This document shows, one piece after another, positions 1 through 10,721 of a stretch of DNA of 10,721 bases. This DNA is from an archaeon (GTDB taxonomy: Archaea; Iainarchaeota; Iainarchaeia; Iainarchaeales; CSSED10-239). The translations under genes and the position numbers were made by a program. Position 1 is the first letter of the stretch, and the number at the start of each line of letters is the position of its first letter. The notes beneath the pieces are model-generated. The model worked only from the letters and a program-made list of their open reading frames with translations. It did not search any database and was not told where the DNA came from. The stretch is taken from the NCBI GenBank assembly GCA_023230325.1, contig JALNXN010000022.1:1-10721 (forward strand). Direction: 5' to 3'.

Positions 1-187
1 CTACTACATTAACATCTACAGCTTTTGAACCCTTGTCATCTTGAACAATTTCAAAAGTTACTTTCATACCATCTCTGATATTAGTACTTTTTAAACCTGT
101 TTGATGAACAAAATAATCCTTGCCATCAGACCCAGTTATAAAACCAAATCTTTTCTTAAAGTTATAAAACTTTACTGTTCCATCCAT
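1..187 (-). CDS. Cold-shock-domain protein, 3' end cut by window edge
   Basis: The visible 62 codons begin MDGTVKFYNFKKRFGFI and continue with DYFVHQTGL, which are the RNP1-like (KRFGFI) and RNP2-like (DYFVHQ) motifs of the CspA/cold-shock family. These are small OB-fold proteins that bind single-stranded RNA or DNA and melt secondary structure. Family members are about 65-70 residues, so only a few codons are missing beyond base 1. The ATG at 187 is chosen because the next upstream ATG is followed at once by a stop, and a GTGA ribosome-binding core sits 7 nt ahead (195-198). A TATA-like TTTTAAAA lies near 207-215. It is downstream of disA on the same strand, separated by 138 bp. Cold-shock domains are patchy in archaea. 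Family assignment is firm; the RNA target is unknown. Confidence 0.9.
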   Translation of the reverse strand, partial: MDGTVKFYNFKKRFGFITGSDGKDYFVHQTGLKSTNIRDGMKVTFEIVQDDKGSKAVDVNVV

Positions 188-240
188 TATATATTCACAT
201 TTTTTGTTTTTAAAATAATCTAAAATTAATAGCTTTTGCT

Positions 241-301
241 TAGCTATAAATTTCAAGACTACATTATAATATATTTATAATAAGAAAGTCTTATAAAGCT
301 A
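241..301. repeat. Imperfect nested inverted repeat between csp and disA
   Basis: TAGCT (241-245) pairs with AGCTA (297-301), AAGACT (255-260) with AGTCTT (287-292), and ATTATAA (263-269) with TTATAAT (275-281). The arms are nested but not exactly co-axial. It lies after the disA stop and 54-114 nt before the csp start. It could be a 3' hairpin of disA, a structured leader of csp, or chance in AT-rich DNA; the G/C-containing arms argue mildly against pure chance. Confidence 0.35.
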
Positions 302-325
302 TTTAAGGCACAAAATTTAAGAAAT

Positions 326-1453
326 TTACTGAAAATTAAACTCATCCTCTAAAATATCCTCATTCAATCTATTTAACTGAGATAAAATATATTTTGCTTT
401 ATTACTATTTAATCCGTCAATTAATGCCAATTGCCCTGGACTACAACTCTTAATATTTGAAATGGTTTTTTTCACATTTATAATTTTATCAATTGTTTCA
501 AAGTCTAAATTTGGAATTTTATATAAAATCCTATACCCTCTAGAATCTTTATTTTCAATTTCACAAGAATTAATTAATATGTTTTTATCAGTTATCTTTC
601 TTACACCTAATCTAAGTAAATATTCAACCTTTTCTTCTGCTTCCTTTTTTGTAATTGGCTTTTGAGAATAATCCATTAAAAGTAAACTTAATTCCTCATC
701 CAATCCAAAAATAACCTCTGAAAGGGTTTGAGAAATATCATTTCCTTGAGTTCCAAGCTCAACTATTATTTTTTCCATCTCTTCACCGTGCTTAAAGAAA
801 TATAGGATTTTTTGAATTACATCAATTACTTGTTCAAAAACTTTTGTAGGAATATTAAATTCACTATATAATAATTTATTTAAATTTGAATCAATCTTTT
901 GTCTATAATCTTTTAAATTATTTAAAGAATAATTTGCTTTAACTGTTAAAAAACTAGGATCTTGTAAAACATATTTTTGATCTCTAAAATATAATGAAAT
1001 TATGTTTCTTCTATGAGAAATTGCAATTACTGGTAAATTACTTTGAATCGCAGTTTGTTCAGCAGACCTATGTCTCATTCCAGTTTCTGAAGATGGAACT
1101 GATTTGTCTGGCATTAAATGTTTGTTTGCACCAATTATCTTTTTTAAATCGCTTGATAAAATAATTGCACCATCCATTTTTGATAATTCAAATAATTTTT
1201 GAGAAGAAAAAGGAATGTCTAAATCAAAACCACCTTTTAAAATTGGAGCTAACTCTTCATTTGAACCTAAAACAATTAATGCACCTAAATTTCCATTTAA
1301 TATTTCATCTAAACCTCTCCTAAGTTCATTTCCAGGAGTAACAATTGGTAAAATTTTATTAATATCTATAATTTCTCCTCTCTGTATTTCTTGAAGAAGA
1401 GCATCAGTCCAATTTTCATCTAGATATTGATTTATTTTAATTTTAACTGACAT
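326..1453 (-). CDS. disA: DNA integrity scanning protein DisA (diadenylate cyclase)
   Basis: The 375-residue protein has the full DisA layout. An N-terminal DAC domain (about 20-165) carries both catalytic motifs, DGA (94-96) and GMRHRSAE (125-132, RHR at 127-129), which condense two ATP into cyclic di-AMP. A helical linker region follows (about 175-310), then a C-terminal helix-hairpin-helix segment (about 330-365, SPGQLALIDGLNSNKAKYIL) that in bacterial DisA binds branched DNA. Bacterial DisA is about 355 residues, so the length fits. Archaeal cyclases described so far are mainly the DacZ type, which has a different architecture. The ATG at 1453 has a GTGA core 6 nt upstream (1460-1463), and a TATA-like tract lies at 1491-1500. 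No phosphodiesterase or known c-di-AMP receptor is nearby. It is transcribed divergently from the deoxyribosyltransferase-like gene. Confidence 0.93.
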   Translation of the reverse strand: MSVKIKINQYLDENWTDALLQEIQRGEIIDINKILPIVTPGNELRRGLDEILNGNLGALIVLGSNEELAPILKGGFDLDIPFSSQKLFELSKMDGAIILSSDLKKIIGANKHLMPDKSVPSSETGMRHRSAEQTAIQSNLPVIAISHRRNIISLYFRDQKYVLQDPSFLTVKANYSLNNLKDYRQKIDSNLNKLLYSEFNIPTKVFEQVIDVIQKILYFFKHGEEMEKIIVELGTQGNDISQTLSEVIFGLDEELSLLLMDYSQKPITKKEAEEKVEYLLRLGVRKITDKNILINSCEIENKDSRGYRILYKIPNLDFETIDKIINVKKTISNIKSCSPGQLALIDGLNSNKAKYILSQLNRLNEDILEDEFNFQ

Positions 1454-1489
1454 ATTTTTTCACAATTTTTAAGTAAAAATAGAATTTTC

Positions 1490-1500
1490 ATATATATATA
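1490..1500 (-). promoter_or_regulatory. Candidate TATA box of disA
   Basis: An alternating TATATATATA tract is centred about 42 nt upstream of the disA ATG. It would place transcription start about 15 nt before the codon, leaving room for the GTGA ribosome-binding core at 1460-1463. Simple AT alternation is weak evidence on its own. Confidence 0.4.
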
Positions 1501-1622
1501 CTATGTTCTTATTATAAATAAACCTAATTGAGAAAATTAATATAAATTAGAATATAGTTTGTAAAATTAATCTAAGTAATTAAAACTATATGTTTATTAA
1601 GAGATTTATGTTTAATATTACT

Positions 1623-1997
1623 ATGAAAATATTATTACTTTCAAGAGAAGAAGATATTAAAAAATTACCAAACATAAAGTTTAATATTAAAAAACATGAA
1701 GTTATACTTCCAACCTTTCAATTAGGAAAAACTTCTAAATTTATAAATAAGAAGAAAGAATTTATAGATAAGGATATTGAATTGATTAAAAAGGTAGATG
1801 CGATTCTTGTTTGTAATTTTGATAAGGGTAAGCAAATAAATTATGTTGGCAGTTCTATGCTTTTATTTATAGGTGTGGCTTATGCTTTAAATAAAAAGAT
1901 ATATTTACTTTATAATTTTTCTAAATCTAAAAGTAAGGATGAAATTAAATATTTAAATGCTACTGCCTTAAATGGGGATTTGAATAAAATTATATAA
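1623..1997 (+). CDS. Nucleoside 2-deoxyribosyltransferase-like protein, probably inactive
   Basis: The 124-residue protein resembles a small archaeal Rossmann-like family related to nucleoside 2-deoxyribosyltransferases. It has a first strand MKILLLS, HEVILP (25-30), the DAILVCN strand (59-65), the segment YVGSSMLLFIGVAYALNKKIYLL (start 74), and an NGDL end (117-120). As I recall the family, the segment normally reads like GGNTFLEIGFAY, with the Glu acting as nucleophile; here that position is Phe82, and the N-terminal CGS-like loop is LSR. Deoxyribosyl transfer is therefore unlikely, and a binding or regulatory role is possible (inference). An in-frame ATG at 1590 would add 11 residues (MFIKRFMFNIT). 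The start at 1623 is preferred because the beta strand begins there, as in relatives. The HAD gene follows after 13 bp, so they are probably co-transcribed. Confidence 0.7.
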   Translation: MKILLLSREEDIKKLPNIKFNIKKHEVILPTFQLGKTSKFINKKKEFIDKDIELIKKVDAILVCNFDKGKQINYVGSSMLLFIGVAYALNKKIYLLYNFSKSKSKDEIKYLNATALNGDLNKII

Positions 1998-2010
1998 AAG
2001 GAAAAGAAAT

Positions 2011-2643
2011 ATGATTAAACTAATAGTTTTTGATTTATGGGCAACATTAGCAAAAAGGGATGGGATTGATTTTCACTTTGCCTTAAAAATAGTTGAGGAA
2101 TTTAAATTAGATAAATTAGAAGCTGATGTTAATGATATTTTTAGAAACACAGTCAAAACTAGGAGATGGGAAACTGAATTTGATGCTTATATTGAATTTG
2201 CAAGAAATGTTGGAATTGAGCCAACAAAGGAAAATACATTTAAAATTATGAAACTAAGAAAAATTGCAGAAAGTAATGTTATGGTTTATGATTTTGTTTA
2301 CCCCTTATTTAAAGCTCTTAAAAAAAATAATTATATTTTATCAATTATTACAAACTCTTCTATTTTTGAAAAGGAACTTTTAGAAAAGAACACAAGGATA
2401 TTAGATTATATTGATTATCCTCTTTTTTCATATGAGATAGGAGCAGTTAAACCAAATCCTATGATCTATTTAGAATTGCAAAGACAAACAATGATTCTTG
2501 CTGATGAGATAGTAATGATTGGGGACAATTTTATTAATGATGTGTTAACACCCAAGCAACTAAATTGGAATGCAATTCATTTTGATGGAGATTATAATAG
2601 ACTTAAAAAAGATTTAGAAGCTTTAGGAATTAACTTAAAATAA
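2011..2643 (+). CDS. HAD-superfamily hydrolase
   Basis: The 210-residue protein has all four HAD motifs: FDLWATL (7-13) with nucleophile Asp8, ITNSS (113-117) as motif II, Lys147 in AVKPNP as motif III, and GDNFINDV (171-178) as acidic motif IV. A helical cap spans roughly 18-95. The usual second Asp of DxD is Trp10. That Asp serves as the general acid in most HAD phosphatases; haloacid dehalogenases also lack it, and DxW forms occur among uncharacterised HAD hydrolases. The substrate therefore cannot be called. The gene starts 13 bp after the deoxyribosyltransferase-like gene, with a purine-rich AAGGAAAAG stretch ahead of the ATG, which suggests an operon. Its stop lies 8 bp from the stop of the converging MBL-fold gene. 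Both genes of the pair could act on nucleotides or sugar phosphates, but this is only an inference from context. Confidence 0.88.
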   Translation: MIKLIVFDLWATLAKRDGIDFHFALKIVEEFKLDKLEADVNDIFRNTVKTRRWETEFDAYIEFARNVGIEPTKENTFKIMKLRKIAESNVMVYDFVYPLFKALKKNNYILSIITNSSIFEKELLEKNTRILDYIDYPLFSYEIGAVKPNPMIYLELQRQTMILADEIVMIGDNFINDVLTPKQLNWNAIHFDGDYNRLKKDLEALGINLK

Positions 2644-2651
2644 ATTAAAAA

Positions 2652-3224
2652 TTAATAATCATGTCCTGAACATAAAAAATCAAAATCTAATTTTTTTAAT
2701 TTTTCTAAAGATAAAGGCATTTCTTTTGGTAAAGAATTTGGTAAATCCATTCTTCCAATAAATTCAAAGTCTGTGTCAAAAAGGGTATCTCCAGAAAATA
2801 ACACTTTCCTTTTAGAATCATATAAACAAATTGAACCTATAGTGTGTCCTGGTGTTTCAATTATTGTTAGATAGTCAGGCAAATCTAAACTAGAGATGTC
2901 ATTTAATTTTAAATTGAAATTATCTGCAACTTCTGTTAAAAGAATTGTTCCAAATCTATTATTACCTAAAGATTCAATTTCTTTTTTAGAAGCATAAAAT
3001 TTAGCATTTGTAAAAATTTTCCAATTTGCGATATGATCATAGTGTAAATGAGTAAATATAACAGTTTTAATCTCTTTAGGATCAATAATTGAAGAAATAC
3101 TTGTTAAAATTAGTAGATAATCGGAAGGAGACCCACAATCAATAATTATATTTTCTTTAGATAAAAAGTAAACATTACTTTCTCCTTCTATTTTATAAAT
3201 CCCATCAACAATTTTTTCAAGCAT
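2652..3224 (-). CDS. Metallo-beta-lactamase-fold hydrolase (glyoxalase II-like)
   Basis: The 190-residue protein starts MLEKIVDGIYKIEG and contains the dinuclear metal site of the MBL fold. Numbered from this ATG: THLHYDH (58-64), giving HxHxDH; His127 in ETPGHTIGS; bridging Asp146 in FSGDT; and His188 in SGHDY near the C-terminus. The small size and GHTxGS/FSGDT pattern fit glyoxalase II-like thioesterases, but the substrate is not determined. An in-frame GTG at 3233 would add three residues. I read it instead as the GTGA ribosome-binding core (3230-3233), 5 nt from the ATG. A 7-bp inverted repeat with a 5-nt loop (3235-3253) lies just upstream, with a TATA-like TTTTTATATAAAG further out (about 3283-3296). 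It converges on the HAD gene. Confidence 0.9.
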   Translation of the reverse strand: MLEKIVDGIYKIEGESNVYFLSKENIIIDCGSPSDYLLILTSISSIIDPKEIKTVIFTHLHYDHIANWKIFTNAKFYASKKEIESLGNNRFGTILLTEVADNFNLKLNDISSLDLPDYLTIIETPGHTIGSICLYDSKRKVLFSGDTLFDTDFEFIGRMDLPNSLPKEMPLSLEKLKKLDFDFLCSGHDY

Positions 3225-3297
3225 ATTAATCACAATTTATTTGTCCAATAAATAATGTTTTTATTCAAAAGGCATAATTATTTCTTTATATAAAAAT

Positions 3298-4281
3298 TTA
3301 TAATTTTTCAATAACTTCTTCAGGAACATAAATATGTTTATAATCCTTAGTTATTTTAACAATATCTATCCTTTTTATAAAATTAGGAAATTTATTTTTA
3401 ATATCATCAACAATTTCATAAAATTTATCTTCAGAATCTATTTCTATTTCTGGCTCTAATTCCCAAGAGCCTACATTTTCAACTAAATATACAATATGTC
3501 TATTGTTTTTACAATATGCTAAAAATTCATTATATTTCTCAATAATCATTTTATTAATAGAAATAAATAATTTATAATATTTTAAATTAACTTTATTAAA
3601 ATTTAAAAAAATATCATAACCTGAAATAATTCCTTTTTTTTCTAAAAGTTTAATTCTTGAAATAACAGTCTTTATATTTAAATTTAGTTTTTTAGATATA
3701 TCCATAGAGGATATTCTAGAATCATTAACTAATAATCTTAATATTTCTTTATCAGATTTATCTAATTTAATAATAATTTCTTCTCCAATCATCTTTTTAT
3801 CTTCTAAATAATTTATTTTTGATTCAACTAAATAGTTTTTACCATAAACATAAGTGTCTGCCATTATACCAACAGAATAATTTTGTATATACTTATTATA
3901 TTTTTGAAGAATTTTATTTTTTTCAGAATTAAATTCTTTAACATCTCTACAAAGAATAGAAATTATTAAATCAAAAACACCTGTACATTTTGCAACCCAA
4001 TTTATTTTATAATAATTATTAAAATCAGTAATAATTAAATCAGTAATATTTTTTGAAGCACCATGAAATTGAAAATATATTTTATAATGACTTAATCCTA
4101 ATTTACTTAAAGAAATTAAAGTTAAAAAATTAGAAATTACCCCTTCTTTTTCTAACCTATGTATCTTATATGTGCAAGTTTCTTTACTTAGTCTTACAGA
4201 TTTAGCAATAACTGAAAATGGTTGTCTACTATTTTTACTTAACTCAAATAATATTTCTTTATCTTTCTTATCTAACTGCAT
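3298..4281 (-). CDS. Transcription regulator with two fused Lrp/AsnC units
   Basis: The 327-residue protein is twice the normal Lrp/AsnC length (about 150) because the whole unit is repeated. Unit 1 has a winged helix at 3-50 (LDKKDKEILFEL to LEKEGVIS) and an effector-binding RAM-like domain at about 62-142. Unit 2 repeats this at 173-220 (LDKSDKEILRLL to LEKKGIIS) and about 233-312. Lrp proteins sense amino acids and act as dimers, so this chain is a built-in dimer that can diverge asymmetrically. The divergent neighbour encodes an amino-acid-type binding protein and is the obvious candidate target; autoregulation is also likely (both inferred). The ATG at 4281 is chosen over 4329 because the longer form would read through a good TATA box (4301-4311) and adds a non-family hydrophobic leader. 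The message is probably leaderless. Confidence 0.88.
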   Translation of the reverse strand: MQLDKKDKEILFELSKNSRQPFSVIAKSVRLSKETCTYKIHRLEKEGVISNFLTLISLSKLGLSHYKIYFQFHGASKNITDLIITDFNNYYKINWVAKCTGVFDLIISILCRDVKEFNSEKNKILQKYNKYIQNYSVGIMADTYVYGKNYLVESKINYLEDKKMIGEEIIIKLDKSDKEILRLLVNDSRISSMDISKKLNLNIKTVISRIKLLEKKGIISGYDIFLNFNKVNLKYYKLFISINKMIIEKYNEFLAYCKNNRHIVYLVENVGSWELEPEIEIDSEDKFYEIVDDIKNKFPNFIKRIDIVKITKDYKHIYVPEEVIEKL

Positions 4282-4300
4282 ATTTAATTTATTACCAATA

Positions 4301-4311
4301 AAATATATAAA
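4301..4311 (-). promoter_or_regulatory. TATA box of the double-Lrp gene
   Basis: TTTATATATTT on the minus strand is centred 25 nt upstream of the ATG at 4281. This is the spacing expected when transcription starts at or next to the start codon (leaderless). It decides the choice of start for this gene. Confidence 0.6.
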
Positions 4312-4319
4312 TATTACTG

Positions 4320-4331
4320 TTTTGTGCAAAA
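4320..4331. promoter_or_regulatory. Short dyad upstream of the double-Lrp TATA box
   Basis: TTTTG (4320-4324) and CAAAA (4327-4331) form a 12-bp near-palindrome about 9 bp upstream of the Lrp TATA box. It could be an autoregulatory or activator site. The arms are short and AT-rich, so chance is possible. Confidence 0.25.
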
Positions 4332-4376
4332 AATAAATGTTAAGTTATAATTACTTGTAAAAACAATAAATTAATA

Positions 4377-4394
4377 TTAACTTAAGCGGGTTAA
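4377..4394. promoter_or_regulatory. TTAAC-N8-GTTAA dyad at the start of the binding-protein gene
   Basis: An 18-bp inverted repeat ends 3 nt before the ATG at 4398. It lies between a TATA-like AATAAATTAATATT (4363-4376) and the start codon. This is where an archaeal repressor such as the adjacent double-Lrp protein would block initiation. Lrp sites are degenerate, so assignment to that protein is inference. Confidence 0.3.
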
Positions 4395-4397
4395 ACT

Positions 4398-5543
4398 ATG
4401 AATAAAAAAATAATACTACCAATTGCAATAATAGCAATAATTTTATTAGCAATATTAACAGCAAACTTTTCAGGATTAATTACACTAAATAATTCAAATG
4501 AATATGTAATTGGTTCAATTATGCCACTTTCAGGAGATGCAGCAGCATTTGGATTACCTTTTGAAAAGACAGTTAATTTAGCTGTTAATGAGATTAATGA
4601 AAATGGTGGAATTAATGGCAAACAATTAAAAGTAATTTTTGAAGATAGTAAATGTACTAATAAAGATGCAGTTGATTCAGTAAATAAATTAATAAATATA
4701 AATAATGTAAAAATAATTATTGGCGGAATTTGTTCTGGAGAAACATTAGCAGCTGCACCAATAGCAGAAAAGAACAAAATAATTTTATTTTCACCAGCAT
4801 CAGGAAGTCCAGATATAACTTTTTCAGGAGATTATATTTTTAGAAATACAGCATCAGATGCTTATTCTGGGAAAAAAATTGCAGAAGCAATAATTAAAAA
4901 TAATCAAAGAAAATTAGCAATAATTACAGAAAATTCAGATTATGCATTAGCAATATCAAGAGTCTTTAAAGAAGAATATAAAAAATTAGGTGGAGAAATT
5001 TTAATTGAAGAAAAGTTTAATTCAGATGTAACTGATTTTAAAACAATAGTTACAAAAATAATAAACACTAATCCAGATGCAATATATTTAATTCCACAAA
5101 CTCCAAAATCGTTAACAATACTTTTAAAAGAATTAAAAGAAAATAACTATACAGGTCAATTATATGGAAATGAATACACTAGATCAAAAGAAGTTTTAAA
5201 AGACTATGCAACAGAAGCTGAAGACATAATTTTTGCAGAACCTGAGTTTGATGAAAATTCACCATTAACTAAAGAGTTATTAGATAAATTAAAAAATAAC
5301 AATATAGACCTATCCTTTCCATCATATCAAACAAAAGTATACGATTCAGTTTATATAATTAAAGAAGCTATTGAAAAATGTAAAACTGATAGGGACACAG
5401 ATTGTATTAAAAATCACCTTTATGGTATTAAAGACAGACTTGGAACAGATGGCTTTTTAACAATTAATGAAAATGGAGATGCAGAAGTAAACTACCAATT
5501 AAAAATTATAAAGAATGGAGAAGTTGTTATTTACAACAACTAA
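4398..5543 (+). CDS. LivJ-type amino-acid-binding protein (type I periplasmic fold), membrane-anchored
   Basis: The 381-residue protein has one N-terminal membrane segment (about 5-28, IILPIAIIAIILLAI), so the ligand-binding part faces outside the cell. The rest is a type I periplasmic-binding fold of the Leu/Ile/Val receptor family: IGSIMPLSGDAAAFG (38-52), NEINENGGINGKQLKV (64-79), GGICSGETLAAAPIAE (109-124) and the SPASGSPDITF loop (132-142). Cys86 and Cys112 match the spacing of the LivJ disulfide, and Cys328/Cys336 could form a second one. No permease or ATPase gene is within the window, so it may serve a distant transporter or act as a sensor. It is divergent from the double-Lrp gene and probably regulated by it (inference). 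Its stop overlaps the abiEii stop by 3 nt (5541-5542 shared, 5540-5543 span). A diverged copy of its last codons lies at 6968-7057. Confidence 0.9.
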   Translation: MNKKIILPIAIIAIILLAILTANFSGLITLNNSNEYVIGSIMPLSGDAAAFGLPFEKTVNLAVNEINENGGINGKQLKVIFEDSKCTNKDAVDSVNKLININNVKIIIGGICSGETLAAAPIAEKNKIILFSPASGSPDITFSGDYIFRNTASDAYSGKKIAEAIIKNNQRKLAIITENSDYALAISRVFKEEYKKLGGEILIEEKFNSDVTDFKTIVTKIINTNPDAIYLIPQTPKSLTILLKELKENNYTGQLYGNEYTRSKEVLKDYATEAEDIIFAEPEFDENSPLTKELLDKLKNNNIDLSFPSYQTKVYDSVYIIKEAIEKCKTDRDTDCIKNHLYGIKDRLGTDGFLTINENGDAEVNYQLKIIKNGEVVIYNN

Positions 5544-6361
5544 TTCTTTTCTTTATTTTTTTTGATATTTTCAATAATTGAAATATAATAAAATTCAAAA
5601 TTATCAATATCTTGAAATTTAATTTCATACATATCTTTAGAAAATACATCCTTTAAATCTAACAAACTTTTTTTAAAACTAGTTAAACTAAATTTTTTAG
5701 AACTACCTATTCCTTTAAACATTAATTTTTTATTAATTAAACTAATAGTATCTTTAGTAAGGTAGATATGTTTTTTATTTATTAGAAACCAAATATCATA
5801 AATATCTCTGCCTTTTCTTCTTGTATATATTGCTCTAATTTTTTCTGAAAAAATTTCTTTTAAATCCATACATCTAATTATTTTTGTTGGAAGATTATAA
5901 GCAGGAAAATCTAATGAAAATGAAACTGTAGGTAATAAAACTTCTTCTCTATAACTAACATCAACATCAATAAAACAAAGACTTTTAGCATTAGTATATA
6001 ATGGACCTTCTGCAGATATTTTCAATGAAAAACCATATTCATTAATACTAACTATTTTTCCAGTAGATTTAACTCCATCTAATACCCAAAGCATACTAGT
6101 AATTCTTTTATTTATATGATTTGAAAATGATTTAATATCTTTAAATCCAAATGGAGAAATAGACAAATCAATAGTAAAATCTAAATCTGTAGAAAATCTA
6201 TCTAATCCCTGAAAAAACCAAAGATAAGTACCACCTTTAAAAACTAATGGATAATCTGACAAAATTATTAATATTAATGTTTGAAGATAATGCTTTTCTT
6301 GTTGATATGGTTTTATTCCTCTTATATTTGCAACATTTACTATTTCTTTTTTACTTAACAT
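5540..6361 (-). CDS. abiEii: AbiEii-type nucleotidyltransferase toxin (type IV toxin-antitoxin)
   Basis: The 273-residue protein has the features of the AbiEii/DUF1814 nucleotidyltransferase toxins. Numbered from the ATG at 6361: FKGGTYL (41-47), RFSTDLDF (55-62) with Asp59 and Asp61 as metal ligands, a FIDVDVS strand (130-136) supplying a further acidic position, the EIFSEKIRA helix (169-177), and RRKGRDIYD (181-189). Characterised relatives (MenT and AbiEii enzymes) transfer nucleotides, in some cases onto tRNA 3' ends, and so stop growth; the target here is unknown. All key motifs are intact. An in-frame GTG at 6373 would add four residues, but ATG 6361 is preferred, giving an 11-nt overlap with the antitoxin gene and hence translational coupling. 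It converges on the binding-protein gene with overlapping stop codons. Confidence 0.9.
   Translation of the reverse strand: MLSKKEIVNVANIRGIKPYQQEKHYLQTLILIILSDYPLVFKGGTYLWFFQGLDRFSTDLDFTIDLSISPFGFKDIKSFSNHINKRITSMLWVLDGVKSTGKIVSINEYGFSLKISAEGPLYTNAKSLCFIDVDVSYREEVLLPTVSFSLDFPAYNLPTKIIRCMDLKEIFSEKIRAIYTRRKGRDIYDIWFLINKKHIYLTKDTISLINKKLMFKGIGSSKKFSLTSFKKSLLDLKDVFSKDMYEIKFQDIDNFEFYYISIIENIKKNKEKN
5544..5563 (+). terminator. T-rich tract after the binding-protein stop
   Basis: The tract contains runs of 4, 3 and 8 T residues within 20 nt directly after the stop. This fits archaeal U-tract termination. The same bases encode the Lys/Asn-rich C-terminus of AbiEii on the other strand, so the run may only reflect that composition. 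Confidence 0.35.
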
Positions 6362-6911
6362 CTTCAACCACACTTTTAACCCTTTTTGGATACAATTTGC
6401 TATATTTTTTTAATAACTTAAAATTGATCAAAGATTTATAATCTTGTAAAGTAGATTTATTATAAATTCCATAATAAATTCCATCAAGTATAGCTTTTTC
6501 TGGATTTGCAATATATGCATAACTACCATCTAAATTATATTTTTTAAAACCAAAAAATAATTTAGGAGTAATTTGATGATATCTTAATTGCATATCCTCA
6601 TAATATCTGGTATTAATAGTAGTAACACAAGAAGTATTAATTGGAACTTGATTAATAATTTGATGAAAAAACAACGCAGAGGACAAAGAAATATAAGATG
6701 GTTCTATAAATTGAGTACCTATCACATATTCATCAGATGAAAATATAATTTTACCATGTTTCCTTTTAGCCAAACCATTATTAACTAATCTTGAAACATA
6801 AACACTTGTAATAACTACAGATCTACCAATAAGATTAGATATTTGCTTAGTACTAAATACTGCTTTTTTAGTATTTAATAACTTTTCTTTAATTTTATAT
6901 ATATTAGACAT
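6351..6911 (-). CDS. abiEi: AbiEi-type antitoxin / transcriptional repressor
   Basis: The 186-residue protein begins with a winged-helix region (about 4-55, with FSTKQISNLIG and VYVSRLVNNGLAKR) and a C-terminal AbiEi-like domain (EPSYISLSSAL from 70, IANPEKAILDGIYYG about 134-148). In characterised AbiE systems this protein counteracts the toxin without binding it stably and represses its own operon by binding inverted repeats in the promoter. The ATG at 6911 is preferred over a GTG at 6914. A TATA-like ATATATAA lies about 26 nt upstream, so the message may be leaderless. The start codon abuts a nested dyad (6911-6946). The overlapping toxin gene follows directly. The length is typical of short AbiEi forms. 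Confidence 0.88.
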   Translation of the reverse strand: MSNIYKIKEKLLNTKKAVFSTKQISNLIGRSVVITSVYVSRLVNNGLAKRKHGKIIFSSDEYVIGTQFIEPSYISLSSALFFHQIINQVPINTSCVTTINTRYYEDMQLRYHQITPKLFFGFKKYNLDGSYAYIANPEKAILDGIYYGIYNKSTLQDYKSLINFKLLKKYSKLYPKRVKSVVEDVK

Positions 6912-6946
6912 CACACCACAATAACAATATTGTTATATATGTGTGA
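6911..6946. promoter_or_regulatory. Nested 36-bp dyad over the abiE promoter (likely AbiEi operator)
   Basis: A perfect 16-bp palindrome, ATAACAATATTGTTAT (6921-6936), is flanked at equal 4-bp spacing by TCACAC (6911-6916) and GTGTGA (6941-6946). All arms share one axis at 6928.5. The dyad covers the TATA-like element (about 6932-6941) and touches the abiEi start codon, so a bound repressor would block transcription. AbiEi proteins are known to autorepress through promoter inverted repeats. Confidence 0.75.
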
Positions 6947-6967
6947 CACAAAACATTTATAAAATAG

Positions 6968-7057
6968 TTCTTTTTAATAATAACTATAATTAAAAATACA
7001 CAGATAAACTATCAATTAAAGATTATTAAAAATGGAGAAGTTGTTATTTATAAATAA
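6968..7057 (+). pseudogene. Relic 3' end of a second LivJ-type binding-protein gene
   Basis: The frame open from 6968 ends ...NYQLKIIKNGEVVIYK and a stop (7055-7057). Fifteen codons (7007-7051) encode exactly residues 365-379 of the complete binding protein (5490-5534). The five nucleotide differences in these 45 positions are all synonymous third-position changes. Weaker similarity continues upstream: the relic reads FFLIITIIKNTQIN where the intact gene reads GFLTINENGDAEVN. A stop (TAG, 6965-6967) and the abiE promoter region adjoin, and there is no start. It is a remnant of a paralogue or of an older allele that was once under protein-level selection. The abiE operon lies between it and the intact gene. 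Confidence 0.85.
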
Positions 7058-7113
7058 AACCAACCTATTAAACAGTAAAAAGAATTCTGCTTAAATCAAA
7101 CAAATTAATTATT
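7058..7113. other. AT-rich spacer without recognised content
   Basis: This stretch lies between the binding-protein relic and the GC-richer structured segment. I see no open frame with a family match, no clear promoter and no repeat of note. Confidence 0.6.
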
Positions 7114-7180
7114 GCGTGTGAACTGAGCAAAACTAGTTCTTTTAGGGGGAAAGCACCTTTTCTAAAGGGGCTCAGTGAGT
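7114..7180. ncRNA. Candidate structured RNA or 3'-UTR element at the gltX stop
   Basis: GC is 31 of 67 bases (46%), far above the flanks. ACTGAGC (7122-7128) pairs perfectly with GCTCAGT (7170-7176). Inside it C7139-G7145 pairs with C7162-G7168 (one G-T), and AAAG (7150-7153) with CTTT (7157-7160). A competing hairpin, GAACT (7120-7124) with AGTTC (7135-7139), would exclude the outer stem. The right side includes the gltX stop codon (7172-7174). On the minus strand it would be a gltX 3'-UTR element; on the plus strand, an RNA antisense to the gltX end. No T-run follows on either strand, so it is not a simple terminator. I do not recognise a known family. Confidence 0.4.
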
Positions 7181-8872
7181 AAACCAAAAGTTATAAATCT
7201 TTTTACCATTTAAATCTTCTTCAATTGAATCAAGTCTACAAAAACCAAATCTCTCAAACTGAATAACTTCTCCTACCTTTAATTGAGAAATATGCGATTC
7301 TGCTTGTCCCTTTATTAATTCATGCTCAGGAGTAAAAACAGTAGCATCAACTAACTGAGAAGAATCATCTGGAAGAAAATGAATTATTGTTTTATTTTCA
7401 TTTGGTTCTTCTTTATATTTAGAATAGTTTTCAGAATCAAATACTAATTTATTAATATTTACAAATTTAAAATTAATATTATCCATTAGTCTAATTAATT
7501 CACCATCTTTAAAAGAATCAAAATCATCTCTTTCAATTAAATAATAACCAGTTGATTTAAATTTTCTTACACCCAAATCTAAATTTGGATGAATTGGTAG
7601 TTTATATTCTTTTTTTGGATCATTTTCTACTTCAATTTTAATTGGATCTTTAATGAAAAAAAATCTTTTTGAAGAATCATTTAATATTCTTTTATTATAT
7701 TTAATTAAAGTATCCCAAGTAATAACAGAACCAGAAGATTTTGTAATACCAGATTCTATTACCATTTGAGTAATTGCTTCTTTTGAAAATCCTCTTCTTT
7801 TTAATGCTCTAAGAGTTGGTAAAGATGGATCATCCCAACCAATAAGTTCTCCAGAATTTACTTTTTCTCTAATTTCTCTTCCACTAGAAGCCATTCCTTC
7901 TAAATTAAATCTTGAAAATTCATAAGTATAAGTATCATATAAACCTAATAGTTTTCTTATATAATGATGAAGTTCTGAAGCCATTTCAAATTCTAATGTT
8001 CTTAGTCTATGAGTAGTATTAAAATAACCATCTAAAACTGCATTTTGAAAATCATAAGTTGGATAATTTCTATATTTATAACCAAGTCTTGGATGTTCTT
8101 TATCAATTACTCTAAAAATTGATGGGTCTCTCATTCTTGTATTTTTATGTTTCATATCAATTTTTATTCTCAAAGAGGCTTTTCCTTCTGGGTAAGTTTC
8201 CATTTCCTTCCAATAGATTAAATTTTGTTCAGGAGTTGTAAATCTACAATCGCAATTTTCTTTTTTATCTCTTAATTCACTCATTTTTTCTGAATTACAA
8301 AAACAAACATATGCTTGATTTTTTAAAATTAATTTTTCAGCCATTTCTTTAAATAAAGGTATATAGTCAGAAGCATATTCAACTCTAACAGGATGAGCAC
8401 CCAACCACTCAATATCCTCTTGCATAATTGTATAAAATTCTGGTTTAACTAATTTAGGGTTAGTATCTTCAAATCTTAAATAAAATTCCCCATCATATTT
8501 CTTTGCTAATAAATAATTTAATAAAATGGCTTTAGAGTGACCAATATGAAAATATTTTTCTGGTCCTGGAGGAAAACAAGTAACAACTTTATCCCCTTCT
8601 TTAATATTTAAAAAAGCAAAAATATTTCTTTCTTCTTTTTCTTTTTTTTCAAAGAATTCAGGATTGATTTCTTTTAATTGTTCAATTTGTTCTTCTAAAG
8701 ATAAGGAATTAATTTCATTTAATAAAGGTATTAATTCAAAAGATAACTCCTTAGTCTTTGTTCTATATTCTGGAAAGTCTTTTAAAATTCCACCAAGAAC
8801 AAATTTAAGTTCAGCTTTACCTTTATGCTTAATTGAATTTTCCAAAATTATTTTTTTAAAATCTTCTTGCAT
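7172..8872 (-). CDS. gltX: Glutamyl-tRNA synthetase, archaeal type
   Basis: The 566-residue class I synthetase charges tRNA with glutamate. In archaea lacking GlnRS the enzyme also charges tRNA-Gln for later amidation (known of the family). It has an N-terminal extension (1-95) seen in archaeal/eukaryotic forms, FPPGPEKYFHIGH (100-112) with the HIGH signature at 109-112, and a zinc-type Cys set CFC...CDC (190, 192, 207, 209). The anticodon-binding beta-barrel part follows from about 400. The KMSKS position reads MASSGREI (327-334), a degenerate form without the usual lysines. THRLRTLEFE (287-296) looks partly GlnRS-like, so Glu versus Gln specificity is not fully settled. ATG 8872 lies 6 nt after the HEPN stop, which suggests co-transcription, although a TATA-like AATTTATAA inside the HEPN gene end could give it a separate promoter. 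Confidence 0.92.
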   Translation of the reverse strand: MQEDFKKIILENSIKHKGKAELKFVLGGILKDFPEYRTKTKELSFELIPLLNEINSLSLEEQIEQLKEINPEFFEKKEKEERNIFAFLNIKEGDKVVTCFPPGPEKYFHIGHSKAILLNYLLAKKYDGEFYLRFEDTNPKLVKPEFYTIMQEDIEWLGAHPVRVEYASDYIPLFKEMAEKLILKNQAYVCFCNSEKMSELRDKKENCDCRFTTPEQNLIYWKEMETYPEGKASLRIKIDMKHKNTRMRDPSIFRVIDKEHPRLGYKYRNYPTYDFQNAVLDGYFNTTHRLRTLEFEMASELHHYIRKLLGLYDTYTYEFSRFNLEGMASSGREIREKVNSGELIGWDDPSLPTLRALKRRGFSKEAITQMVIESGITKSSGSVITWDTLIKYNKRILNDSSKRFFFIKDPIKIEVENDPKKEYKLPIHPNLDLGVRKFKSTGYYLIERDDFDSFKDGELIRLMDNINFKFVNINKLVFDSENYSKYKEEPNENKTIIHFLPDDSSQLVDATVFTPEHELIKGQAESHISQLKVGEVIQFERFGFCRLDSIEEDLNGKKIYNFWFTH

Positions 8873-8878
8873 AATTAA

Positions 8879-9325
8879 TCATTTTTTATTTTTTTTCTTA
8901 TAAATTATATCATCTACAATATTTAAAAAAATTTCAGTTTGTTCAATAATAAAAAAAGCTTCATCTTTACTTACTAAATTTATTTCTTCATAAACTACTT
9001 GATGCCTTTTTTTTCTGGTTTTATTAATTAAGAAAAATAATGTTTCTGGAATATTAGAACTAAAATTTTCTTTAACAAAATTAATTATAGATAAATGTTT
9101 AGAATATCCTGTTGGTCTATATCCTTTAAAAAACATTAAAGATTTAGCTGCTTGAAGCATTGCAGTATAAGATATAGATAAAGCCCAATCATAATCTTTT
9201 ATAGTAAACAATTTCCTTGCAACTTCTAAATCTCTAAAAGCATGTTTTAATGAATTTTCTATAAACTCTTTAGTTGAATCTATTTTTTCCCAACTAATTA
9301 ATTTTTCTTCTAAAATTATCCTCAT
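8879..9325 (-). CDS. HEPN-domain protein, candidate toxin of an MNT/HEPN pair
   Basis: The 148-residue protein is all-helical and HEPN-like: HAFRDLEVARKLFTIKDYDWALSISYTAMLQAAKSL (from residue 28) and the KHLSIINFV helix. The candidate active motif is RKKRHQVVY (104-112, numbered from the ATG at 9325). HEPN toxins are RNases with R-x4-6-H; here Arg104-x3-His108 is one residue short, so activity is uncertain. In HepT/MntA systems the partner inactivates HEPN by adding AMP to a Tyr after the His; Tyr112 is the nearest candidate. The start at ATG 9325 is used, with a TTG at 9331 as the alternative; a GGAG directly precedes the ATG. It overlaps the upstream MNT gene by 32 nt, so translation is coupled, and gltX starts 6 nt after its stop. 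Confidence 0.82.
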   Translation of the reverse strand: MRIILEEKLISWEKIDSTKEFIENSLKHAFRDLEVARKLFTIKDYDWALSISYTAMLQAAKSLMFFKGYRPTGYSKHLSIINFVKENFSSNIPETLFFLINKTRKKRHQVVYEEINLVSKDEAFFIIEQTEIFLNIVDDIIYKKKNKK

Positions 9326-9872
9326 CTCCAATTAACATAATAATTTTATCTTTATTTATTGTTTTTAATAAATTATTATTTTTTGATTTTTTAATAAAAT
9401 CTTTATTATTCCATAAAATATAATTAATATCTCTTTTTAATCTATCTTCTAAATCACTAATAATTTTTAATAATTCATTTTGATTAAGAGAATCAGAAAT
9501 AACTAATAAATCAATATCACTTTTTGAATTTTCTACACCCTTAGCAAAAGATCCAAAAATAAGACAATAATCGACTTTGTTTTTTAATTTTATTTTAATT
9601 TCTTGGCCTATAAACTCAGTTTTTAAAAAAATATTTTTTAAGTCTTTTAAAAAAATATTATTTTTATTTATTGTATATATAGAAAGATTACTTTTCTTAA
9701 TTTTAATAATTAGATTTAATGATTCTAGATTTAATAGTTCCTTAGATGTTTGAGAAGGATAACTTTTAGTTAATTTTGCAATTTCTCTTAAATGGAAAGA
9801 TGAATCTTGATTAAACATTAATAAGGATAAAATATTTATTCTTGTTTTTGAAGTAAATAATTTTTCTAACAT
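9294..9872 (-). CDS. Minimal nucleotidyltransferase (MNT) with N-terminal winged helix, candidate antitoxin
   Basis: The 192-residue protein fuses a winged-helix DNA-binding domain (1-75; SKTRINILSLL, FHLREIAKLTKSYPSQTSKEL) to a small polymerase-beta-type nucleotidyltransferase. The catalytic signature is complete: FGSFAKG (106-112), SDIDLLV (118-124) with Asp119 and Asp121, and a third Asp at 148 in RDINYILW. In MntA/HepT pairs this enzyme AMPylates the HEPN toxin and neutralises it. The added winged helix suggests that the same protein represses its own promoter, which carries a 36-bp nested dyad ending 4 nt from the ATG (inference). It overlaps the HEPN gene by 32 nt. A TATA-like CTATATTTG lies about 30 nt upstream, under the outer arm of the dyad. 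Confidence 0.87.
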   Translation of the reverse strand: MLEKLFTSKTRINILSLLMFNQDSSFHLREIAKLTKSYPSQTSKELLNLESLNLIIKIKKSNLSIYTINKNNIFLKDLKNIFLKTEFIGQEIKIKLKNKVDYCLIFGSFAKGVENSKSDIDLLVISDSLNQNELLKIISDLEDRLKRDINYILWNNKDFIKKSKNNNLLKTINKDKIIMLIGDEDNFRRKIN

Positions 9873-9875
9873 ATA

Positions 9876-9911
9876 TACACTATTTAAGTACAGTTGTACA
9901 AATATAGTGTA
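9876..9911. promoter_or_regulatory. Nested 36-bp dyad over the MNT/HEPN promoter
   Basis: TACACTAT (9876-9883) and ATAGTGTA (9904-9911) are perfect inverted arms. Inside, 4 bp away on each side, GTACA (9888-9892) faces TGTAC (9895-9899). All arms share the axis 9893.5. The site lies 4 nt before the MNT start and covers the TATA-like element, which fits an operator for the winged-helix domain of the MNT protein. Confidence 0.7.
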
Positions 9912-9951
9912 CAGAAAGAAATTTAAATATAACCTTTATTTAACATCATAA

Positions 9952-10230
9952 TTAATCGTAATTCCTTTTATAAACATAATCTCTATGTTCAAAATATCTA
10001 AATAAAATTTTATTTTCTTTTTTTAAATACCTAAAAATTAAAACAAATTTCTGAGTAATATGAACTCTTTTAAAGTTCTGCAAAGGATTTTTTAAATTTT
10101 TATAATGTTCAATTTCAATATTGTTTTTAATTTCATCTATTTTAGTAAGTATTTGAGAATATAACATAGGATCTTTTTTTGAAAGTTTAATTAAATTCTT
10201 TAATAATTCTTTATGAAATTCAAAATCCAT
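9952..10230 (-). CDS. relE: RelE-family mRNA interferase toxin
   Basis: The 92-residue basic protein has the RelE/ParE fold pattern: an N-terminal helical hairpin (HKELLKNLIKLSKKDPMLYSQILTKIDEI), then strands FKRVHI (53-58), FVLIFRY (62-68) and ILFRYFEHRDYVYK (75-88). The basic and aromatic tail around His82, Arg83, Tyr85 and Tyr87 occupies the place of RelE catalytic residues. RelE toxins cut mRNA in the ribosomal A site. The ATG follows the stop codon of the antitoxin with no gap (TAAATG), and an AAAGGT ribosome-binding site lies inside the antitoxin end. Together with the antitoxin it forms a type II toxin-antitoxin operon. RelE rather than ParE is preferred from the tail, but not proven. 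Confidence 0.85.
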   Translation of the reverse strand: MDFEFHKELLKNLIKLSKKDPMLYSQILTKIDEIKNNIEIEHYKNLKNPLQNFKRVHITQKFVLIFRYLKKENKILFRYFEHRDYVYKRNYD

Positions 10231-10482
10231 TTATTTACCTTTTATATAATTATCTAAATCATCTACAGAATTAAACTTTTTATAATCTGAAGATTTATCT
10301 TTTTTATTATCTGATAACACTTTTTTTATAAAATCAGGTCTTAATTCTGGAGCTAATTCTAAATCTGCGTAGTATCTAACTACTACAGAAATTGCTTCTA
10401 CTTTATTTTTTAAATTATTCTTTGCTTTAATTATATTTAATGTTTGATTTATGTCTACTGGTAAATCTAATAATGCTTTCAT
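10231..10482 (-). CDS. DUF2683-like antitoxin partner of RelE
   Basis: The 83-residue protein starts MKALLDLPVDINQTLNIIKA, a ribbon-helix-helix-like N-terminus (strand to about 8, helices about 10-38) of the kind found in the archaeal DUF2683 family, followed by LAPELRPDFIKK (43-54) and an acidic/Lys-rich tail (SSDYKKFNSVDDLDNYI) that would wrap the toxin. Such proteins bind both the toxin and their own promoter. A strong GGTGA site is placed 4 nt before the ATG, and a TATA-like ATATATAATATAT lies directly upstream, so the pair has its own promoter rather than being read only from tyrS. Family assignment is from memory of the sequence pattern. Confidence 0.8.
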   Translation of the reverse strand: MKALLDLPVDINQTLNIIKAKNNLKNKVEAISVVVRYYADLELAPELRPDFIKKVLSDNKKDKSSDYKKFNSVDDLDNYIKGK

Positions 10483-10486
10483 GTTA

Positions 10487-10491
10487 TCACC
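10487..10491 (-). promoter_or_regulatory. GGTGA ribosome-binding site of the DUF2683 gene
   Basis: GGTGA (extended to GGTGAT) lies 4 nt ahead of the ATG at 10482 and matches the archaeal 16S 3' tail. It is the best ribosome-binding site in the window and fixes this start. Confidence 0.65.
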
Positions 10492-10518
10492 AAATATATT
10501 ATATATCGAAACATTAAT

Positions 10519-10548
10519 AAATATTAATAGTTATTAACAAATATTAAT
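10519..10548. repeat. Two direct copies of AAATATTAAT upstream of the DUF2683/RelE operon
   Basis: Identical 10-mers lie at 10519-10528 and 10539-10548, 20 bp apart (about two helical turns), upstream of the TATA-like element. Such spacing would suit a ribbon-helix-helix repressor. The sequence is all A/T, so chance is a serious alternative. Confidence 0.25.
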
Positions 10549-10591
10549 TAAAATTAAAAATAATATAATTAATTAAATTTTAACTCAATTA

Positions 10592-10721
10592 TTATAAACT
10601 TTCAGGATAAGCTGCTTTAATTAAGTCTTCTTTTCCAACAAACTTTTGTCTAATTGGTTCTAATAATTTATTTACTTCTTCAGACACTCCATTTTTTAGA
10701 TCCATTGGATGAAGTGCTTTT
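10592..10721 (-). CDS. tyrS: Tyrosyl-tRNA synthetase, C-terminal end only
   Basis: The 42 visible codons read [19 protein letters not shown] and end AAYPESL before the stop at 10592-10594; the rest lies beyond the right edge. The LHPMDLKN...LLEPIR segment matches the C-terminal helix of archaeal TyrRS such as that of Methanocaldococcus jannaschii, which ends in a very similar sequence. The enzyme joins tyrosine to its tRNA. Catalytic motifs are outside the window. It is followed on the same strand, after 109 bp, by the DUF2683/RelE operon. Confidence 0.85.

Follow-up and report, generated by a model that had tools for sequence, protein, structure and literature searches.

Three described systems appear to come closest to the locus analysed here. 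In Helicobacter pylori, insertions with long target duplications, often of restriction–modification genes, were put forward as a way for genes to move (Nobusato et al. 2000, as presented in PMC1643837). In Vibrio type VI secretion system arrays, homology-facilitated illegitimate recombination is proposed, with one-sided homology anchoring foreign DNA and old 3′ parts of genes being shifted downstream (as described in PMC5361080). The third, which involves an integrase, is e14 at icd of Escherichia coli K-12, where the old 3′ end is displaced past the inserted prophage and the gene is completed by a new end with mostly silent differences; the scar is given there as 165 duplicated bp with 12 nucleotide changes and two conservative replacements (PMC11148124). 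Here we analysed 10,721 nucleotides of an Iainarchaeota assembly (GCA_023230325.1, contig JALNXN010000022.1, positions 1 to 10,721; hereafter the window), which are AT-rich (GC content of 23%) and in which a type IV toxin–antitoxin cassette, abiE, stands between two copies of the 3′ end of a substrate-binding protein gene, next to the glutamyl-tRNA synthetase (GluRS) gene gltX. Like the H. pylori insertions, the segment is flanked by a long duplication, but it holds an archaeal type IV toxin–antitoxin system and the differences between its core copies are silent, which suggests two alleles rather than the duplication of a single target. The prophage e14 brings a putative integrase, whereas the segment in the window measures about 1.5 kb and contains abiE only. 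With the Vibrio arrays, as far as their description goes, the locus would share anchored foreign DNA and displaced 3′ parts; the anchor there lies upstream of an effector–immunity module in a polymorphic toxin locus, while here it would be an unrelated neighbour gene.

The substrate-binding protein gene (ATP-binding cassette type, Peripla_BP_6; 4398..5543, plus strand; Pfam PF13458, E 1.5e-49) is intact and encodes 381 residues. Codons at its end (5490..5534, plus strand) recur on the same strand at an offset of 1517, beyond abiE (7007..7051), where 40 of the 45 bases are identical. Both copies read NYQLKIIKNGEVVIY in the same frame, and the five codons that differ all do so silently; the longest exact run common to both is only 20 bases. 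No other 45-mer match in the window comes close (41/45 for the repeat at its best register, 34 for the runner-up), and the best match in 20 windows simulated with a third-order Markov model was 35. The second copy, a relic gene end, stays in frame up to its own last codon and stop (AAA TAA, 7052..7057, plus strand), while the intact gene ends in AAC AAC TAA. In silico, joining the two copies by deletion of one repeat unit restores a binding-protein gene of 380 residues that ends in VIYK and a stop, 114 bp from the stop of gltX, as would be expected of an attachment (att)-like repeat. The initial annotation had described both the repeat and this restoration, and both hold.

Five silent changes out of five would be improbable if one copy had simply drifted (probability 0.0002 to 0.004, depending on the mutation model). 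A duplication made in place, with the relic drifting afterwards, is likewise disfavoured because drift predicts more replacements (P 0.0064). It was also claimed that the second copy had once been a selected coding sequence; it does look coding until recently, over its last 15 codons. At an unchanged offset, a weaker similarity extends further upstream, as far as 6970 (6970..7006, plus strand; 24/37 matches, a value reached by 9.4e-5 of control placements), where 9 of 12 codons carry replacement differences and a stop stands in frame at 6965. The statement that all differences are silent is therefore correct for the last 15 codons and fails upstream of them. The two parts have diverged unequally (13/37 upstream versus 5/45 in the core, Fisher P 0.015), and the upstream match is either chance in AT-rich DNA or, probably, a decayed flank next to a core that kept its coding role until later. 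The direct repeat that brackets abiE thus spans 45 to 84 nucleotides. Whether its copies were identical at insertion is answered differently by its parts, since the 15-codon core speaks against it (P 0.0064) and the full 27 codons give no such signal (P 0.52).

Between the binding-protein stop and about position 6969, some 1.4 kb hold abiEi and abiEii and nothing else of note. The toxin gene abiEii (5540..6373, minus strand; PF08843, E 6e-26; PADLOC AbiEii, 3.3e-50) encodes a nucleotidyltransferase and carries the hG[G/S]..DhD motif, as defined for AbiEii in PMC3985639, in the form GGTYLWFFQGLDRFSTDLD (GG..DLD). The antitoxin gene abiEi (6351..6914, minus strand; PADLOC AbiEi, 1.4e-23), listed with a GTG start and with an ATG at 6908, is the first gene of a bicistronic operon and overlaps abiEii, as in type IV systems; its product has no Pfam match and lies far under the cut-off of the NCBIfam AbiEi model (16.4 versus 150 bits). 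An imperfect inverted repeat over the abiEi start (6892..6965, no strand; 70–72% complementary) is a candidate AbiEi operator, of the kind that serves autoregulation in AbiE systems, within which a TATA-like TTTATAAA (6955–6962) was read by eye. The two genes look like a recognisable and intact type IV pair, which resembles described AbiE systems in gene order, families and nucleotidyltransferase motif, may do so in its promoter inverted repeat, and is notable only for its genomic setting. An enrichment of AbiE in DPANN archaea has been reported (PMC12988326). As had been noted, the stop of abiEii (TAG, 5542–5540, minus strand) and that of the binding-protein gene (TAA, 5541–5543) overlap by two bases; the C-terminus of AbiEii is three to six residues longer than those of its homologues P0122–P0125. 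The window contains no tRNA, which rules out a tRNA as the insertion target, and no terminal inverted repeats of a transposon were noticed around the cassette.

We give roughly even chances to the reading that the locus is the scar of a homology-anchored insertion, which joined two gene-end alleles around abiE. Foreign DNA with abiE and a homologous binding-protein gene end would have recombined beside or inside the resident gene, with one side anchored by homology in the binding-protein gene and the other joined without an integrase. The end of one allele would now complete the gene and abut abiEii, and the end of the other would have been left next to gltX, past the abiE promoter; this latter copy is more likely the resident end. 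Consistent with such a history, an intact gene that converges on gltX results when the two repeat copies are joined. That an insertion occurred in this way, and through one-sided homology, is what we infer from the sequence.

The architecture recurs in other genomes. An AbiEii search covered 392 genomes from the phylum to which the haloarchaeon G002 belongs and had a match in 82 of them. We took 78 loci (L060–L137): 75 from among the better-scoring places of this archaeal search, with weaker and contig-edge places left out, and three from a bacterium (G001). Two of them (L132 and L134), where AbiEii was not relocated, were dropped, leaving 76 (73 from the archaeal search and three from G001); several come from one genome, and the loci are not all independent. 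A gene was scored as sandwiched when bracketed by direct repeats of at least 40 nucleotides (E ≤1e-6) with copies at most 4.5 kb apart; a filter at ≥82% identity misses the window's own repeat, and looser settings were used. Sandwiching was found in 16/76 AbiEii loci and in none of 20 GluRS loci (Fisher P 0.021). The GluRS loci were the top scorers among 96 matching genomes, and because their test spanned the entire gene, flanking was a little harder to score. None of 454 positions in L001–L024 was sandwiched. A stricter setting left 11/76 AbiEii and 0/20 GluRS loci, and another loose one gave 5 of 32 short AbiEii loci against 8 of 240 random positions in L001–L024.

Five of the 16 sandwiched loci (L060, L061, L093, L095 and L131) were tested by codon, the rest being gapped, non-coding or of unclear frame, and clear gene ends were found in the first four. 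The duplicated sequence is the 5′ end of an Lhr-like helicase gene in L060 (10 silent and 2 replacement codons, P 0.0052), part of a DNA methyltransferase gene in L061 (47 and 18, P 1e-7), the 5′ end of a Fae gene in L093 (8 and 3, P 0.049) and the 3′ end of an epimerase gene in L095 (4 and 3, P 0.26); L131 has 3 silent and 1 replacement codons (P 0.22). An excess of silent changes over drift after duplication is thus seen at P<0.05 in three of the five, and L095 and L131 do not reach it. The tyrosine-integrase family PF00589, the only such family searched, has no match on the contigs of L060, L061 and L093 and none within 130 kb of L095; the matches in these four genomes are on other contigs or, in G153 (the genome of L095), 130 kb or more away. 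Genes adjoining abiE in relatives of L060 and L093 are not conserved within the flank of about 1.5 kb and decide nothing. In L061 (2767–10965), methyltransferase pieces at 2767–3560, 4446–5226, 5997–6246 and 7330–8121 precede an intact copy (10066–10965), and between the pieces stand AbiE, a HEPN-MNT pair (by eye) and other small genes, like stacked scars. A second partial copy of a fae start lies about 150 nucleotides upstream of fae in another genome (L239:2883–2962, genome G467), in a locus with no match to the abiE genes of L093.

The layout of the window is repeated at L095, in genome G153, where an intact gene converges on abiEii and its 3′ end recurs as a relic on the other side of abiEi. 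This parallel has abiE-free relatives, since in G123 and G086 (two of the 19 other loci compared) the epimerase gene is directly followed by the gene that stands behind the G153 relic, without abiE. In G153, abiE separates these two epimerase genes. The two gene ends of G153 read as two contexts joined around abiE, because the relic fits the stop–start overlap of G123 (ATGA), which it keeps if the second gene starts at the methionine of MKILV, and because the end of the intact copy with 50 nucleotides of flank resembles G147 (101/113). The assignment of the resident end in G153 is a likely one. Elsewhere, the two genes share a strand with about 3.1 kb between them (G115 and G133) or the second gene is missing at E values up to 1e-60 (G106, G147 and G140).

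For the genes of the window itself, linkage in relatives was judged from protein matches on contigs of equal size and same source. AbiEii and GluRS matches share contig sizes of 30774 bases (P0122 and P0223) and 9507 bases (P0125 and P0234), with the same sources, in two relatives (chance expectation of 0.009 among top matches and of 0.042 over rows of at least 9 kb). In the GluRS tree, P0223 and P0234 form a group that excludes the window (98/98), and in the AbiEii tree the window groups with P0122 and not with P0125 (87/95, below the tree program's star); since the two trees conflict, abiE appears to move. No AbiEii turns up, among 99 matches, for four GluRS relatives whose contigs measure 671531, 839632, 368344 and 177659 bases. 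Overall, abiE is patchy and seems mobile. The binding protein (99%) and AbiEii (100%) each match on a 3096-base contig, probably one and the same, with 0.81 such coincidences expected over all sizes. A 3595-base match of P0039 and P0275, with the same sources (0.66 expected over all sizes), is no more than suggestive of linkage between the binding-protein gene and gltX, and a 2862-base match between binding protein and GluRS was rejected, with different sources and too little length for both genes. The binding-protein gene may not be the usual target of abiE. Its product has 517 homologues, the nearest full-length one at 99% and the next at 64–69% among the matches listed; a scan of genome contigs with the binding protein alone yielded 25 loci, of which none came from an archaeon resembling the probable host of the window. 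Viral contigs scanned with the binding protein (alone and as an alignment), AbiEii, GluRS and the 15-codon pattern yielded no relative. The proposal of the initial annotation that abiE arrived with a binding-protein gene end gains from L095, with its identical architecture and abiE-free relatives, and loses from the gltX-linked abiE of two relatives: abiE may not have arrived via the binding-protein gene, or the direction may be reversed.

Several results weigh against a homology-anchored insertion of abiE. If the upstream part of the repeat is homologous and all 27 codons are counted, the silent excess is gone (P 0.52). The integrase negative covers PF00589 only, serine recombinases not having been searched for. 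Elsewhere in AbiEii loci, 39 of 444 positions are sandwiched (arrays such as L061 included), and the GluRS and L001–L024 controls are limited by small numbers or by genomes that were not matched. PIN loci, 40 taken from the upper part of the matches listed, are sandwiched in 8 cases (Fisher P 1.0 versus AbiEii; 9/40 with the gene's own bounds and 4/40 at the stricter setting), some of them apparently tandem PIN genes. Because PIN loci are sandwiched as often, specificity for AbiE is ruled out and the pattern marks toxin–antitoxin neighbourhoods, not AbiE alone. The abiE–gltX contigs of 30774 and 9507 bases carry no binding-protein homologue among the 120 of 517 listed, and the conflict between the AbiEii and GluRS trees depends on one branch, with only 87/95 support in the AbiEii tree. 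In G153 the arrival may have been the reverse, with the second epimerase gene and the relic joining a resident first gene, and G106 and G147, the nearest to G153 by the first gene, lack the second.

The initial annotation also considered an integrating element, and site-specific integration at the gene's 3′ end by a recombinase-bearing element with its own version of that end, its integrase since lost or acting in trans, is the alternative that survives best, although we regard it as unlikely. The icd/e14 scar shares the signature, and a conserved core with a decayed flank is what att arms would leave. Precisely mapped thaumarchaeal elements lie in 3′-distal regions of protein genes in 14/68 cases, and the median att site of crenarchaeal elements is 45 bp, as given in PMC6563490; the same source describes thaumarchaeal att sites as generally short, which fits less well. 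The bracketed segment, moreover, contains only abiEi and abiEii, no recombinase was found among the window proteins scanned, and the four coding parallels have no PF00589 match in their vicinity. What is duplicated in L060 and L093 is the start of a gene, and 5′ gene ends are unusual as att sites.

A tandem paralogue, also put forward at first, would explain the relic as the remainder of a second binding-protein gene before gltX, most of which abiE replaced. Silent differences throughout the 15 codons are what a selected paralogue would show, and P0005, with 666 residues, appears by its length and ending to hold a second such domain. However, 15 identical residues with five silent changes would suit the allele of a relative at least as well, the four nearest homologues are of single-domain length, and no two of the 120 listed homologues (of 517) lie on a same-sized contig of the same source, the repeated size of 8217 belonging to different sources. 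We consider this explanation rather improbable.

Poorer still are the prospects of a history in which abiE has long stood beside gltX and it is the binding-protein gene that moves, the relic being what is left of an earlier copy of this gene between abiE and gltX. The two AbiEii–GluRS contigs, and the lack of a listed binding-protein homologue on either, are in its favour. The disagreement of the AbiEii and GluRS trees argues against simple vertical inheritance of the pair, and the contigs of four GluRS relatives (177659 to 839632 bases) without AbiEii among the 99 matches add to the doubt. An assembly artefact joining two strain variants, conceivable in what is probably a metagenome contig, is highly improbable given a longest shared exact run of 20 bases, the probable joint presence of binding protein and AbiEii on the 3096-base contig and the recurrence of abiE–gltX linkage in relatives.

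Returning to homology-anchored insertion, a more general claim is possible, though we make it with considerable doubt: bare archaeal toxin–antitoxin cassettes may spread integrase-free, with a host gene's end attached to them as a homologous anchor, swapping it for the resident end and stranding the old one. Toxin–antitoxin and defence genes are patchy and mobile, some with no visible mobile element around them, and a scar that keeps both alleles of a neighbour gene's end would be a readable record of transfer. If spread of this kind takes place, scars could pile up in arrays of the sort suggested by L061, and the cassette could be lost or regained when the two ends recombine. Such scars could be dated relative to one another by their silent changes and searched for systematically. 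In the literature we found no direct statement of a gene-end scar pattern for AbiE, which is no proof of absence.

The remaining genes of the window frame the locus. An Lrp-like regulator stands upstream of the binding-protein gene on the minus strand (gene order). The archaeal-type gltX (7172..8872, minus strand; TIGR00463 above cut-off) is convergent with the relic, 114 bp away, and an inverted repeat, ACTGAGC..GCTCAGT (7120–7180), was seen by eye across its stop, with no Rfam match and an ordinary fold energy. A structured RNA at 7055–7195 was ruled out (no Rfam match up to E 1; fold z-scores of -0.37 and -0.32). Upstream of gltX, within 8879–10482, lie a HEPN-MNT pair (PADLOC PDC-M05-like) and two small genes whose likeness to a RelE/RelB pair is confined to size and order, with no Pfam match for the one scanned; gltX is thus flanked by two recognised and one suspected toxin–antitoxin modules. 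Among named relatives of the binding protein and of GluRS are Aenigmarchaeota, Pacearchaeota and Woesearchaeota, which makes a DPANN host probable, though the binding protein has bacterial relatives as well. All five residue differences between the binding protein and its near-identical homologue P0001 fall within residues 268–307 of 381, a clustering that hints at a recombination tract in the gene. A DisA-like diadenylate cyclase is encoded at 326–1453 (NCBIfam, E 1.2e-96), and the contig is probably archaeal.

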